Assembly (NCBI GenBank): GCA_002862545.1
Contig: PKDJ01000310.1
Coordinates: 1-57,644 of the forward strand
Direction: 5' to 3'
DNA: 57,644 nt
From: Pseudomonadota bacterium
Lineage (GTDB): Bacteria; Myxococcota_A; UBA796; GCA-2862545
Shown here: positions 16,547 through 22,112 of the stretch, piece by piece
How positions within the stretch are numbered: the stretch's first letter is position 1
Layout: the number at the start of each line of letters is the position of its first letter
Notes under the pieces: model-generated
Seen by the model: only the letters and a program-made list of their open reading frames with translations
Databases searched by the model: none
What the model was told of the DNA's origin: nothing
Position numbers and translations under genes: made by a program

Positions 16547-16852
16547 CTAGACGCTGCGAACCCAAGCTACATAGCCATCAAATGATGCCGCCATGTTTGG
16601 GTCGAGAACCAAGATCTCTGGCACGTCATAGCTGTGGAGCACCGCGAGCCTCGCAGTCAGCGCGTCTCGCTTCTCGGATGACACCTTGATCAGCAGGGTG
16701 TGCTCCGAGTCCTCACACAACTCACCCTTCCACCGGTAGACCGACGTCACACCCGGCAGGACGTTCACGCAGGCGGCAAGCCGCTCCTCCACCAGCGCCC
16801 GCGCGAGGAGTAGAGCCTCCGCTGGTGGGCAGTTGCACAGCACGAGGTGCAT
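16547..16852 (-). CDS. cutA: Divalent-cation tolerance protein CutA
   Basis: The 101-residue protein is a standard-length CutA1, a trimeric PII-like protein linked to metal tolerance. It shows the A-R-A-L-V-E-E-R-L-A-A-C-V-N segment, S-V-Y-R-W-K-G, the L-L-I-K-V-S strand and the Y-D-V-P-E-I-L motif. It is the last gene of a minus-strand set that begins with the ECF sigma factor, 9 nt after the exported protein gene, so it may be co-transcribed with that system. Confidence 0.92.
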   Translation of the reverse strand: MHLVLCNCPPAEALLLARALVEERLAACVNVLPGVTSVYRWKGELCEDSEHTLLIKVSSEKRDALTARLAVLHSYDVPEILVLDPNMAASFDGYVAWVRSV

Positions 16853-16861
16853 CAGGCCCCC

Positions 16862-17371
16862 TCAGTACGAGACGGTGACCGGAAGGACCAAGGCGCCATC
16901 CTTGAGCTTGGGCCCGCCAATCACGAAGCTCTTGTCCCTCGGGATGGAGACCGTCGTGTCCAGGACCTTGTCTTTGCTCCCGTTGAAGAGCCGGATCCTG
17001 ATTTTCGCTCGCTTGGCGTCTCTCTCGAGGAGGTCGACCTTGAGCTTACGATCTCCAACGAGCGAGAAGGTGGCGTCACCGCCGACAGCGAGATGCGCAG
17101 GGTACGTGGCCAGCAGCTTGAACCCAGTGAACCGAGTGAAGGTGAGCTGCTTCATCAGAGGCTTGAGCTCGGCATCCACAGACTTGCTGTGGTCTGCGCG
17201 AACCACCCGCACGTCGACCTCGACCTTGCCCTGCACAGGCGCCGCGGCCGCGGACGGCTTGTCTTGCGCGACCGCCGCAGGCGCGCTGCCCAGAAGCAGC
17301 AGGGCCGCCATTCCCCCGACAACTGCAGAGAAAAGGCGGCGTACTCGCCGTGAAGACCCGCTACTGGTCAC
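16862..17371 (-). CDS. Exported protein of the ECF sigma operon, unknown function
   Basis: The 169-residue protein has an Arg-rich N-terminus, a hydrophobic signal segment (about 13-35, cleavage near A-V-A-Q) and a mature beta-rich domain with many Lys/Val/Asp residues. It has no cysteines, lipobox or membrane anchor, so it should be periplasmic or secreted. Its GTG start overlaps the stop of the repeat membrane protein in GTGA. This strict coupling suggests the two products work together, for example as a periplasmic sensor input to the sigma system. That role is inference. Confidence 0.72.
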   Translation of the reverse strand: MTSSGSSRRVRRLFSAVVGGMAALLLLGSAPAAVAQDKPSAAAAPVQGKVEVDVRVVRADHSKSVDAELKPLMKQLTFTRFTGFKLLATYPAHLAVGGDATFSLVGDRKLKVDLLERDAKRAKIRIRLFNGSKDKVLDTTVSIPRDKSFVIGGPKLKDGALVLPVTVSY

Positions 17372-18651
17372 GTGGCCTCCTCATCTACCCAGATGATCAA
17401 CGCACCCTCGTCGCCTTCAGTCTGCATCACTTGAACGGCGTCTGACCACTCTAGCTCATCTACTACAATCTCCGACGCAGCTGCGAACTGCATTGGAGCG
17501 GGCTGTGCCGATTCGATGGGTCCGAGACCACCGATAAGCTGACTGGCACCCACGACGCACAGCACGATCGCGGCCATCAGCATGGCTCCCCACGACCAAG
17601 CCCGATTGGCTGGAGCAGGCAAGCTCATGGGAGCCGCCTCCGCCGAGGGCATCTGTCCGGGAGGCTCAGACGTTGACGCCCGGCGTGCAGCGAGAGCAGA
17701 CAACACCGAGTCAGTGACATCGACAGAGCCTGCCTCGGAGCGAACGGCAGCTGCGACAGCCCCGCTCTCCCCCGCGGCCTCGACCGATTCGAGCTCACCC
17801 GCTTCGAAGCGGACGGCCTCGGCCACCGGGAGCGCAGAGATCTGCAGCTCCGCCAGCACTGCGCCACCGACATCGACCGGTCCAGCCTCCTGTCTGACGG
17901 CCTCGGCCACCGCCATGACACCATCCGCAAGCTCGAGAGCAGAGATCACAACCGCAGCGACATCCACCAACCCGGCTTCACGCCGGACCGCCTCGGCGAC
18001 GGGCAGCGCCTCCATCTCGAGAGCAGCGAAGACACCGTGTGAGACATCGACGCTGCCCGCCTCGTGCTGCACAGCATCCGCCAGCCATGCGAGCTGCAGC
18101 GTCTCATCTACGCTCGGGACCGGACCAGCCTCTGCAAGGATCCCCTCGACGACCCCAGCCTTCTCCTCTCCGACAGCGGCCTGAATGTCTAGAGCGACCT
18201 CGGCCCGCCCCCCCTCACGGCTCACCGCCTCAGCGAGGAGAGGCCCATAGACCCAGTCCGACGACACGCCCCGGTCGACTCTCGCGAGGACCGCATCGAC
18301 GACCTCACACCGACCGGCCTCTCCTGACACCGCCTCTGCGACCAGGGGGCCCCAAGGCCAGTCATCCTCGAGCTCCAGGACCTCGCTTGGCGTCAGCTCC
18401 GCCTCCGACACAGAGAGATCGTAGGAGACTGCATCCCGAAGAGCATCGCCGAACAGCTCGTCCACCCCTAGGACAGCGAGCAGTCCAGCCGCATCCGACG
18501 GCGCCTCCGTCGCCAGAATCAGCACTTCCTCTCGAAGCTCTGGCGGCAGTCGCGCATCGTGACGGACCAGCCCGCGCGCCTTCTGGAGGTCCGCATCCGT
18601 CGCACCCCCATCGCGAATGCGCATCAGCAGGGTCTCGAGCATACCGGTCAT
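17368..18651 (-). CDS. Membrane protein with seven A-E-A-V-R-x-E-A-G repeats, candidate anti-sigma factor
   Basis: The 427-residue acidic protein lies directly after the ECF sigma gene, the usual site of an anti-sigma factor, yet it has no zinc H-x3-C-x2-C motif. An N-terminal helical part (1 to about 75) precedes seven copies of an 11-residue core, consensus x-V-A-E-A-V-R-x-E-A-G followed by x-V-D-V, at about 103, 138, 189, 217, 247, 275 and 298. A Pro/Ser linker, one membrane helix (about 352-374) and a 50-residue acidic tail ending I-I-W-V-D-E-E follow. A cytoplasmic sigma-binding repeat region and a periplasmic tail are inferred. Confidence 0.7.
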   Translation of the reverse strand: MTGMLETLLMRIRDGGATDADLQKARGLVRHDARLPPELREEVLILATEAPSDAAGLLAVLGVDELFGDALRDAVSYDLSVSEAELTPSEVLELEDDWPWGPLVAEAVSGEAGRCEVVDAVLARVDRGVSSDWVYGPLLAEAVSREGGRAEVALDIQAAVGEEKAGVVEGILAEAGPVPSVDETLQLAWLADAVQHEAGSVDVSHGVFAALEMEALPVAEAVRREAGLVDVAAVVISALELADGVMAVAEAVRQEAGPVDVGGAVLAELQISALPVAEAVRFEAGELESVEAAGESGAVAAAVRSEAGSVDVTDSVLSALAARRASTSEPPGQMPSAEAAPMSLPAPANRAWSWGAMLMAAIVLCVVGASQLIGGLGPIESAQPAPMQFAAASEIVVDELEWSDAVQVMQTEGDEGALIIWVDEEAT

Positions 18652-18686
18652 CGGAGGATTCCTGGAATGGACTTAGGAGGATGGCA

Positions 18687-18698
18687 GTCCGCGCGGAC
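18687..18698. promoter_or_regulatory. 12-nt perfect palindrome between sigma and repeat-protein genes
   Basis: GTCCGCGCGGAC is self-complementary and lies in the 71-nt gap between the sigma gene stop and the candidate anti-sigma start. It could be a protein-binding site or a short hairpin that sets the ratio of the two products. GC-rich DNA makes chance palindromes of this size fairly likely. Confidence 0.3.
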
Positions 18699-18722
18699 CG
18701 CAGGGAGAACCGTCAGGGACTG

Positions 18723-19343
18723 TCACGTCGGAGCATGCTGCGCTGCGAGCAGCTTCTGCAGCTTCTTCCTGGCATAGAACAGTCGCGACATGACTGTTCC
18801 TTCCGGGATTTCCATGATCTCGGCGATCTCTCGGTACGCGAGCCCCTCGAGCTCCCGGAGCAAGATGACCTGCTTCTGATCGGCCGGGAGCTTCTCCATG
18901 GCGTCCATGATGCGCGCATAGAGCTGCTTCCGCTCAAGCACACGGCTCGGACTGTCCCCGTGGTGGACCTCGTGGATGCCACCATCCCCGTCCCGCGACG
19001 CGATGGTCTCGTCATAGCCACTCGACTCACCCCTGCGCTTCCGCTTGCGCGTCAAGTCAATCGCAAGGTTCATCGCGATTCGGTAGAGCCACGTGTAGAA
19101 GCTGCTCTCGAGACGGAAGGTGGACAGCTTGTGGTAGGCCTTGACGAAGGCCTCCTGCGTGATGTCCCGAGCGTCTTCGCGATTGCGCAGCATGCCGTAC
19201 GCCATCGCGTAGATCCGCTCCTGGTACTTCTCGACCAGGCCACGGTAGGCAGTGTTGTCCCCGGCCAGGACGGCCTCGAGCATCTCTCGGTCGGCCTCTC
19301 GACTGACCATCGGATCTTCTCGGGTCGCAGCGACCGTCATCAT
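18723..19343 (-). CDS. ECF-type RNA polymerase sigma factor
   Basis: The 206-residue protein has a region 2 (about 34-103: Y-R-G-L-V-E-K-Y, DARDITQEAFVKAY, then F-Y-T-W-L-Y-R-I-A-M-N) and a region 4 (about 147-200: L-P-A-D-Q-K-Q-V, Y-R-E-I-A-E-I-M-E-I-P-E-G-T-V-M-S-R-L). A basic linker joins them. It would direct RNA polymerase to stress or envelope promoters. GGAGGAG precedes two adjacent ATG codons; the first is used. The linked repeat membrane protein and exported protein probably control its activity. It follows polA by 120 nt on the same strand. Confidence 0.93.
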   Translation of the reverse strand: MMTVAATREDPMVSREADREMLEAVLAGDNTAYRGLVEKYQERIYAMAYGMLRNREDARDITQEAFVKAYHKLSTFRLESSFYTWLYRIAMNLAIDLTRKRKRRGESSGYDETIASRDGDGGIHEVHHGDSPSRVLERKQLYARIMDAMEKLPADQKQVILLRELEGLAYREIAEIMEIPEGTVMSRLFYARKKLQKLLAAQHAPT

Positions 19344-19463: not shown

Positions 19464-22112
19464 TCAGCCGTGAGCCGCGTTCCAGTCGTGCCCCGCAGCC
19501 CAGTTCACCTGCAGCGGCACGGCAAGATCTGCGGCTGCCATCATCTCTCGAACAACGACCTCGGCCACGGCCTCCTCGTACCCAGCGTGCACCTCGAGGA
19601 GGAGCTCGTCGTGGACTTGCAGCAGCATCAGCGCGGGTAGCTCCGACTGCTGGAGAGCCTGATGGACCCGGATCATCGCGAGCTTGATGATGTCAGCTGC
19701 CGTTCCCTGAACCACGGTGTTCACCGCCTCTCGCTCGGCAGCGGCCCGATCCGTGAAGTTCTTGCTGTAGATCTCGGGGATCAGTCTACGTCGTCCGAAG
19801 AGCGTCTCGGCATAGCCGACCTCTCTACATGACTTCTTCGTGGCTTCGATCCAGTCGGACACCTCTGGCATTCGGCCGAAGTACTCGTCCATGTACGCCT
19901 TGGCCTCCCCCCGACTGATCGAGAGATCACGGCCAAGCCGGAACGCGCTCATGCCATAGAGCAGACCGAAGTTGATGGCCTTGGCTGCACTGCGCTGCTC
20001 GACCGAGACCTCCGACATCGGCACCTTCCAGACCTCCGACGCCGTCCGACGGTGAATGTCTTCACCGCTGCGGAAAGACTCGATCAGGGCCTCGGAGCCG
20101 CAGCAGTGCGCCAGGATGCGGAGCTCCACTTGGCTGTAGTCGAAGGACATCAACACCCGACCCGGGGGCGCGACGAAGGCGTCGCGAATGCGCCGCCCCT
20201 CGAAGGTTCGAATGGGGATGTTCTGGAGGTTCGGCTCGGTGCTCGCGAGCCGACCCGTAGCCGCCACCGTCTGATTGAAAGTCGTATGAATACGCCCATC
20301 TTCGCCAACATGCTTAGGCAGCTTCGAGAGGTAGGTGCTGTCCAGCTTCTGCAGCTGCCTGTAGTCGAGAATTGCGCGTGGGAGGGGGTGATGCTCTGCG
20401 AGGCCCTCCAGCACACTGCTGTCGGTCGACCAGGCTCCAGAGCGTGTCTTCTTCGACTTGGGCAGCTCGAGCTCAACGAAGAGCACGTCAGCCACCTCCT
20501 TGGGTGAGTTGACCTTGAAGGCCCTGCCCGCGAGCTCGTGGCACGTTGCCTGTGCTTGAGCCGCACGAGCCTTGATGTCGTCACGCACCTGGGCCAACAC
20601 ATCGCGGTCCAGGAAGATGCCGTTCTCCTCCATCTCGGCCAGGATCGGCGTGAGCGGGAGCTCAATCTTCTCGTAGACGAAGCGTGTCCCGTCGCCGAGA
20701 CGCTTCTGCAGCTTCGCATGCGCCAGCCAAGCCACATGCGCGGGCTCGATTGCGCAGCGTACGACATCCTCCAGCAGCAGAGGCTCGACGTCGGGAGCGT
20801 ATGCGAGGCTGTGGCCCAGATGACGCTGGGCGAGATCTTCGAGCCCATGTGTGCGTCGGTGGGCGACGAGCACATAGTCGAGAACCCGCGCATCACCCAC
20901 CAATCCCGCAGCCTTTCCGCCAGCTTTCGAGACCACCCTCATGCTCTGCTTGAGGTCGTATCCAATCTTCTCCACCGTCGGATCGGCGAGCAACTCGAGG
21001 ACCCGGGTCGTGGCCGCCTCGACGTCGTGGGACACCCCACTGCGTGGGGTGAGCGGGAGGTAGGCTGTTCCACCCTCCCAGGCGAAGCTAGCACCGAGAA
21101 TCATGACTCCAGCGCCTGTCTCGTGCGCTCGCAGTGCGAATGCCAGGCGCCCAGCGGCTCGCAGGTCCTTCAGCAGCTCGTCGACACCACTGTCGGTGGT
21201 GACTGCGCGGTAGCCCGACGTGTCGACAGCAACCTTCGCTGGAAGCAGCTTTCGCGCGACGGAGCCGAACTCCCACTGCTCGAAGAGCTCACGCAGCTCC
21301 TCCTCTTGGAGCCCACGTGGCGCCAGGTCATCCAGCGTGACCCCCAGGTCGAGCTCGGTCTCGATACGCGCCAGAGTCCTCGACATCCTGGCGGCCTCGG
21401 CATGCTCGACCAGGTTGGTGCCGCGCTTGCCCTTGACTTCGCCAGCGGCCGCGGCCGCCAGTACGGACTCGAGGTCGCCGTACTTTGCGAGCAGGGTGCT
21501 CGCAGTCTTGGGCCCAATTCCAGGCACTCCAGGGATGTTGTCCGAGCTGTCGCCCTGGAGACCCAGCCAGTCGACGACCTGCTCCGGGCGCACGCTGAAC
21601 TTCCCGACGACCCCTTCGACATCGAGCTCTCGACCCTTCGCCTCGTCGAGCAATCGGACGTTCGGCCCAACCAGCTGAGCGAAGTCCTTGTCGGAGGTGA
21701 CGAGGTACACGAGCAAGTCGTCGGACGCGAACTGTGCCGCGAGACTGCCCAACACGTCATCCGCCTCGTAGCCCTCCATCATCATGCAGGGGTAGCCGAA
21801 GGCCTCGACGAGCTCTGGCAGCAGGGGCCACTGCCGCTTCAAGTCACCCGGCATGTCCGGGCGGTGCCCCTTGTAGTCCTCGTACATGGCGTGACGAAAC
21901 GTCTTCCCGCTGTCGAAGGACACGACCACGTAGTCCGGACGCCACTGCCGGAGCATCTTCTGAAACAGCAGGGTGAAGCCATACAGCACTCGCGTGGGGA
22001 AGAAGCCGGTCGTGTGCTGGGGTGGCAAGGCGAACTGCGCCCGGAACGCGTGGTTGCTGCCGTCCACGAGAAACATCGTCTTCTGCACAGGACCCCCGCT
22101 TGTCTTCCACAT
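19464..22112 (-). CDS. polA: DNA polymerase I
   Basis: The 882-residue enzyme has the complete three-part plan: 5' nuclease (about 13-285, with the GYEADD, TSDKDFAQLV and GVPGIGPKTA motifs), a middle domain (about 305-480) and polymerase (about 490-882). The polymerase domain carries motif A F-D-Y-S-Q-V-E-L-R, motif B R-S-A-A-K-A-I-N-F-G-L-L-Y-G and motif C QVHDELLLEV. In the middle domain the D-x-E of a 3'-5' exonuclease is replaced around A-L-R-A-H-E and the later aspartates are not evident, so proofreading is probably lost, as in Taq-type enzymes. The start may be ATG 22112 or the ATG 36 nt inside. Confidence 0.96.
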   Translation of the reverse strand: MWKTSGGPVQKTMFLVDGSNHAFRAQFALPPQHTTGFFPTRVLYGFTLLFQKMLRQWRPDYVVVSFDSGKTFRHAMYEDYKGHRPDMPGDLKRQWPLLPELVEAFGYPCMMMEGYEADDVLGSLAAQFASDDLLVYLVTSDKDFAQLVGPNVRLLDEAKGRELDVEGVVGKFSVRPEQVVDWLGLQGDSSDNIPGVPGIGPKTASTLLAKYGDLESVLAAAAAGEVKGKRGTNLVEHAEAARMSRTLARIETELDLGVTLDDLAPRGLQEEELRELFEQWEFGSVARKLLPAKVAVDTSGYRAVTTDSGVDELLKDLRAAGRLAFALRAHETGAGVMILGASFAWEGGTAYLPLTPRSGVSHDVEAATTRVLELLADPTVEKIGYDLKQSMRVVSKAGGKAAGLVGDARVLDYVLVAHRRTHGLEDLAQRHLGHSLAYAPDVEPLLLEDVVRCAIEPAHVAWLAHAKLQKRLGDGTRFVYEKIELPLTPILAEMEENGIFLDRDVLAQVRDDIKARAAQAQATCHELAGRAFKVNSPKEVADVLFVELELPKSKKTRSGAWSTDSSVLEGLAEHHPLPRAILDYRQLQKLDSTYLSKLPKHVGEDGRIHTTFNQTVAATGRLASTEPNLQNIPIRTFEGRRIRDAFVAPPGRVLMSFDYSQVELRILAHCCGSEALIESFRSGEDIHRRTASEVWKVPMSEVSVEQRSAAKAINFGLLYGMSAFRLGRDLSISRGEAKAYMDEYFGRMPEVSDWIEATKKSCREVGYAETLFGRRRLIPEIYSKNFTDRAAAEREAVNTVVQGTAADIIKLAMIRVHQALQQSELPALMLLQVHDELLLEVHAGYEEAVAEVVVREMMAAADLAVPLQVNWAAGHDWNAAHG

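Follow-up and report, generated by a model that had tools for sequence, protein, structure and literature searches.

A putative zinc-less class I anti-sigma factor with a tandem array of helix-4-like units encoded beside an ECF sigma factor

The sigma factor operon and its repeat protein

The window, i.e. the whole stretch of 57,644 nucleotides that was analysed, harbors four minus-strand genes in the order sigma factor, repeat protein, exported protein and cutA. The repeat gene and the exported gene overlap by 4 nt (GTGA), the GTG start of the latter overlapping the stop of the former. The genes, followed by the parts of the repeat protein, are:

18723..19343, minus strand: ECF sigma factor, 206 aa, RpoE/SigW-like, Pfam Sigma70_r2 and Sigma70_r4_2
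17368..18651, minus strand: membrane anti-sigma candidate with the helix-4 array, 427 aa
16862..17371, minus strand: exported protein, 169 aa, signal peptide and a confident beta fold in the model
16547..16852, minus strand: cutA, Pfam CutA1
18412..18651, minus strand: N-terminal helical domain (aa 1-80), block pLDDT 80-98
18271..18351, minus strand: unit 1 (aa 101-127), unit HMM 7.6 bits
18166..18246, minus strand: unit 2 (aa 136-162), 6.3 bits
18118..18162, minus strand: degenerate half unit (aa 164-178), 0.0 bits, a trace only
18016..18093, minus strand: unit 3 (aa 187-212), 18.2 bits
17929..18009, minus strand: unit 4 (aa 215-241), 13.8 bits
17839..17919, minus strand: unit 5 (aa 245-271), 15.0 bits
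17788..17835, minus strand: half unit 6 (aa 273-288), helix-4 half degenerate, 3.8 bits
17686..17766, minus strand: unit 7 (aa 296-322), membrane-proximal, 16.1 bits
17533..17604, minus strand: predicted single transmembrane helix (aa 350-373)
17371..17484, minus strand: extracytoplasmic tail (aa 390-427), motif V-x-x-L..V-x-V..LIIWVDEE

An earlier reading of the DNA, made from its letters alone (the sequence-only reading), had described an ECF sigma gene, a membrane protein with seven repeats, a coupled exported protein and cutA, and all four genes were confirmed at their places. Its count of seven is a fair one: the protein holds 7-8 copies of a unit of about 27 residues, units 1 to 5 and 7 being whole or nearly so. 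A unit HMM from which the window protein had been withheld gave it 36.6 bits in total and recognized eight segments above 3 bits. Its cytoplasmic part, shuffled 3000 times, never exceeded -13.8 bits and never held more than three such segments. The single membrane helix and the acidic tail reported by that reading were likewise recovered, and the zinc motif HxxxCxxC is absent from the repeat protein, as had been said, and from the other members of the order that were printed. Tandem Repeats Finder detected no DNA-level tandem repeat in the window, so the array at this locus is old and diverged.

In the AlphaFold2 model aa 1-80 form helices of high confidence, the units appear as short helix pairs of low confidence, and one transmembrane helix follows; we propose that aa 1-80 are a remnant of anti-sigma helices 1-3. 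A Foldseek search with the whole model returned nothing significant (MucA at E 7.3 only), and Pfam placed neither the repeat protein nor the exported protein of the window in a family above cut-off. Direct family searches with the repeat protein and a peptide-pattern scan of named genomes gave no match, and a PDB profile search with the alignment yielded alanine-rich matches only (a GntR regulator at 0.0085), which were discarded as spurious.

The cutA gene adjoins the operon in only part of the window's family and is probably a passenger. Directly upstream of the sigma gene lies polA (19464-22112), and the DNA upstream of many orthologous sigma genes resembles the end of polA, which reads like conserved synteny. 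No promoter motif shared by the regions upstream of the sigma orthologues, as would have pointed to autoregulation, was found, partly because polA is so close in many loci.

Conservation of the locus and its exported partner

Almost all sampled genomes of the GTDB order, a group of uncultured relatives of the myxobacteria, contain exactly one close orthologue of the sigma factor, and the layout downstream of it is constant: an acidic protein of 192-450 aa with one transmembrane helix and a conserved tail, followed by an exported protein of 152-182 aa. A profile of the repeat protein matches 61 of the 63 genomes of the order (the match in G017 is a paralogue, L156), and its sole match in the window's own genome is the window locus. 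Beyond the order it gave a weak match in four of six genomes of the outgroup family f9 and, at E values up to 1e-6, matched only two of the 308 genomes from other classes of the phylum. The exported gene comes next in all 30 loci where the contig continues, and the 4-nt overlap is usually kept. The profile search across genomes that had been suggested thus finds the orthologues behind the orthologous sigma gene throughout the order, and a lack of conserved linkage, the outcome that would have spoken against a sigma partner, is excluded. Apparent fusions of sigma and anti-sigma in G026 and G030 were rejected, the genes being separate. Where further ECF/anti-sigma pairs from the order were read over their full length, none had an array. 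At L150, L151, L153 and L154, also from the order, such a pair is followed by an open reading frame with a caspase-like 'YYSGHG' or 'YLSGHG' motif, giving operons of sigma, anti-sigma and caspase-like genes.

The exported protein of the window was modelled, with a core mostly above 93, as eight strands and two helices, one of the helices being the signal peptide. An RseB-like partner was not recognized in it, as it gave neither a Pfam match above cut-off nor a clear match in the PDB. DUF1425 was hit by four of 30 members (best E 0.0018), which serves as a lead only; secretin pieces from Foldseek (E 0.015, TM below 0.45, large rmsd) were not accepted, and GreB-type NCBIfam matches of single exported proteins are attributed to chance. 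Co-conservation with the sigma factor fits a putative role of this protein as the input. Its C-terminal residue is Tyr in 26 of 30 members and that of the anti-sigma protein is Leu in about two thirds; these ends are possible PDZ-type ligands. A likely homologue, recognized by eye, stands beside a relative of the ECF sigma in another phylum (L097, Omnitrophota), and the exported partner may therefore be older than the array.

The unit and helix 4 of class I anti-sigma domains

Searched directly, the window protein matches no family; its orthologues do resemble known anti-sigma domains. An internal segment starting 'LSALVDGELS' is kept in 11 of 32 aligned members of the order and in two members found in named records. 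Pfam assigns this segment to RseA_N or zf-HC2. RseA_N was hit by five of 32 orthologues, with best values of 6.3e-5 (L049) and 2.7e-4 (L050), although no member reached the gathering cut-off (23.9 versus 24 for the best orthologue); in L050 the match spans the unit core 'VDLWAAIGASIG' up to profile position 71. Four of the 32 hit zf-HC2 with E values down to 1e-4, L049 passing the cut-off, and one orthologue hit the NCBIfam model 'anti-sigma factor' (3.1e-5). In hhalign comparisons with column-shuffled profiles as nulls (n=100), the domain retained in orthologues scored 41.6 with zinc anti-sigmas (P 8.6e-8, null maximum 15.5) and 22.3 with RseA plus MucA (null maximum 13.1). The N-termini of the window's family aligned to this retained domain with a score of 31.9 (null maximum 15.4, none of 100 nulls as high) and those of other families with 33.1 (null maximum 11.2). 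Compared directly, the N-termini of the window's family were equalled by two of 100 nulls with the zinc anti-sigmas and by six of 100 with RseA. Since this direct comparison does not stand out, the window protein is assigned to the anti-sigma factors by descent through its orthologues. The first part of the MucA N-terminus used in these and the unit-HMM comparisons agrees with a retrieved MucA stretch; the rest of it is assumed.

The sequence-only reading had put the repeats in place of an anti-sigma domain, which does not hold: the orthologues match anti-sigma profiles and the units are most likely copies from such a domain. Its idea that the repeats may be directed at the sigma factor remains plausible. 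It had named a profile hit of residues 1-75 to a known anti-sigma domain as evidence against its view; taken directly such a hit is only marginal (the two nulls in 100), while through the domain of the orthologues the link is strong. Judged by these alignments, the repeat protein would belong within the known anti-sigma fold and not outside it, and is most likely the inhibitor of the adjacent stress sigma factor.

In class I anti-sigma factors helices 1-3 bind sigma4, and helix 4, carried on a flexible linker, binds sigma2; each of the four published co-structures of an ECF sigma with a class I anti-sigma shows it touching sigma region 2, and the contacts that these four co-crystals share include RseA residues 55, 56, 58, 59, 60 and 63 (PMC7406223, Table 2 for the contacts). 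The unit core 'VDVADAVMAALG' aligns with 'FDISSRVMAAIE' of RseA and 'LDIAAAVSAALA' of MucA, so placed that the conserved unit positions 3, 7, 8 and 11 correspond to RseA 55, 59, 60 and 63. A hydrophobic residue is kept in the units at RseA I55, V59, M60 and I63, and the units vary least at the positions of RseA 54, 55, 59, 60 and 63. This conservation was scored on regex-selected units and is partly circular; fixed-period slices, an unbiased check on few units, gave the same result. By itself the unit HMM finds RseA and MucA weakly, with 16 and 79 of 2000 shuffles scoring as high, respectively. Taken together, the unit is most likely helix 4 of a class I anti-sigma domain with its lead-in, copied.

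Outside the order the same operon occurs in f9 and in more distant relatives, with a single anti-sigma domain and a single unit. The f9 loci (L146-L149) encode an orthologous sigma factor (49-54% identity) and a one-domain anti-sigma factor of 187-196 aa with a transmembrane helix and the tail 'IEVESIDSPG..MVVQE...VPAIVWVTE'; the exported protein is present in L148 and L149. G332 (L158), G264 (L157) and L087 likewise combine the sigma factor with a one-domain anti-sigma factor having a tail of similar kind. In L158 and L087 the domain ends in 'FDVADAVMAAIG' and 'FDIAAAVMARL', respectively, and downstream of the G264 protein an open reading frame of the exported type was noted by eye. The single helix 4 of L158 scores 15.3 bits with the unit HMM (none of 2000 shuffles as high) and sits at the position of RseA helix 4; in most f9 members the HMM misses helix 4. 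As one-domain forms surround the order and arrays are found only inside it, the arrays are most likely derived.

Within the order the arrays have 1-9 units (one in L046, two in several orthologues), and the number differs even between congeners, for example L055 and L059 (g15). Their period depends on the family (20, 24, 25, 28 or 30 aa), with unrelated linkers and the same core, and at the DNA level several orthologues still contain tandem arrays: 60 bp x6.5 at 96% identity, 75 bp x6.5 at 86% and 84 bp x4.2 at 91%. Such differing periods and linkers around one core, with DNA copies 86-96% identical, point to repeated independent duplication in which the core was kept.

Proposed working, alternatives and known systems

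We consider, with a probability of about 0.7, that the 427-aa protein is a zinc-less class I anti-sigma factor of the adjacent sigma factor in which the helix-4 element was tandemly duplicated within the order. The ancestral cytoplasmic domain would have been a single four-helix domain, as in the relatives, and helix 4 with its lead-in, which would seat on sigma region 2.1/2.2, would then have been duplicated many times. At rest the N-terminal bundle and at least one helix-4 unit would hold the sigma factor at the membrane, away from RNA polymerase; the extra units would provide a high local binding capacity and may raise avidity or hold more than one sigma molecule. A change in the envelope would be sensed by the short tail and probably also by the co-translated exported beta protein, and the signal would release the sigma factor by proteolysis or a conformational change. 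The computations show the gene order, its conservation across the order, the homology of the orthologues to anti-sigma domains, the match of the unit to helix 4 and the recurrent growth of the arrays; that the units bind sigma, that they do so multivalently, that the exported protein supplies the input and that proteolysis frees the sigma factor is inferred. That one chain holds several sigma molecules, and that the envelope stress response takes its threshold or burst size from the length of the array, is a tentative extension, somewhat less likely than its opposite; the single-unit orthologue L046 suggests that one unit can suffice.

A comparably open alternative, to which we also give less than even odds, is that sigma binding is confined to the N-terminal bundle and the unit nearest the membrane, the other units being a by-product of duplication or a tether of adjustable length. 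The RseA-like 'VM' occurs in the last unit of 21 of 30 proteins versus 28 of 121 other units, and both the orthologues with one or two units and the variable number in L055 and L059 agree with it. Against this, the helix-4 pattern is kept in diverged arrays while the linkers varied, which neutral drift would not favour, and last units average 13.7 bits with the HMM, only a little above the 11.5 bits of the others. The stronger version, in which the last unit alone is conserved, was dropped because the excess is modest.

The units might instead bind other ECF sigma factors or another partner, making the protein a hub; the window's genome has about 25 sigma-70 region 2 matches, and the specificity-type position after V-D-V varies among the units of one protein. 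The strict single-copy linkage to one sigma orthologue, and the presence of anti-sigma candidates beside the other sigma genes examined, make this unlikely. We regard as slightly less probable still that the array acts as a timer of degradation or as a processivity substrate, in which more units delay sigma release after intramembrane cleavage. RseA-type anti-sigma factors free their sigma by regulated proteolysis, and the array, lying between bundle and membrane anchor, would be met first after the cut; however, no protease recognition signal was identified, and conservation lies on the sigma-contact face of the unit and not in bulk length. Very improbable, finally, is a scaffold unrelated to anti-sigma factors that lies downstream of the sigma gene by chance. 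The missing direct Pfam or structure match of the window protein would suit it, but orthologues and outgroup forms match anti-sigma profiles beyond the shuffled-profile nulls and share the canonical position, the transmembrane helix and the conserved tail.

Similar to the zinc-less class I proteins RseA, MucA and RskA, the preferred anti-sigma candidate is encoded after an ECF sigma gene and combines a cytoplasmic helical domain, one transmembrane helix and an extracytoplasmic tail; the DGEL region of helix 1 is kept in orthologues, as is the helix-4 contact pattern D-hydrophobic-x-x-x-V-M/L-x-x-I/L. Unlike these three, the proteins of the order carry helix 4 and its lead-in in 1-9 copies. We file them under zinc-less class I and not under RseA, since none attains the RseA_N cut-off and a partner resembling RseB did not turn up. 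The membrane anti-sigma factors L090, L092, L093, L094 and L102 occupy the same position after a related ECF sigma factor (42-44% identity) and have a similar tail, '(V/I)(E/D)S(I/L)...(I/V)IW(V/L)', but differ in possessing HxxxCxxC and only one domain; among them, L093 and L090 are genuine zinc anti-sigmas by their zf-HC2 matches (5.8e-9 and 4.6e-10, respectively). The tail motif of the window protein recurs in single-domain anti-sigma factors of other lineages.

To our knowledge, ECF anti-sigma domains are thought to act one per sigma factor. RsbN and CnrY (class III and II) bind both sigma domains with short helices and are without a repeat array. In the structure of RsbN with BldN the final helix extends to another sigma molecule (PMC7406223, which prints the two names swapped), which may serve by analogy as a precedent for one anti-sigma factor touching two sigmas. 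A helix-4 array in an anti-sigma factor was not found in searches of an open-access library; within that scope the layout is new, the zinc-less class I kind already known. A copied sigma2-gripping helix in 1-9 units at varied spacings amounts to a natural experiment on the evolution of sequestration strength and stoichiometry, its orthologues being ready-made variants for multivalent sequestration, and conserved through the order is a proposed envelope stress system of three genes, one of them for an exported partner not yet characterised. If several sigma molecules were indeed held per chain, this would be an evolvable sequestration array whose length changes by tandem duplication between sister species. 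Near-identical in-frame arrays of 60, 75, 60 and 84 bp occur in the anti-sigma genes of L059, L054, L082 and L032, respectively, and these are good candidates for copy-number variation within species.
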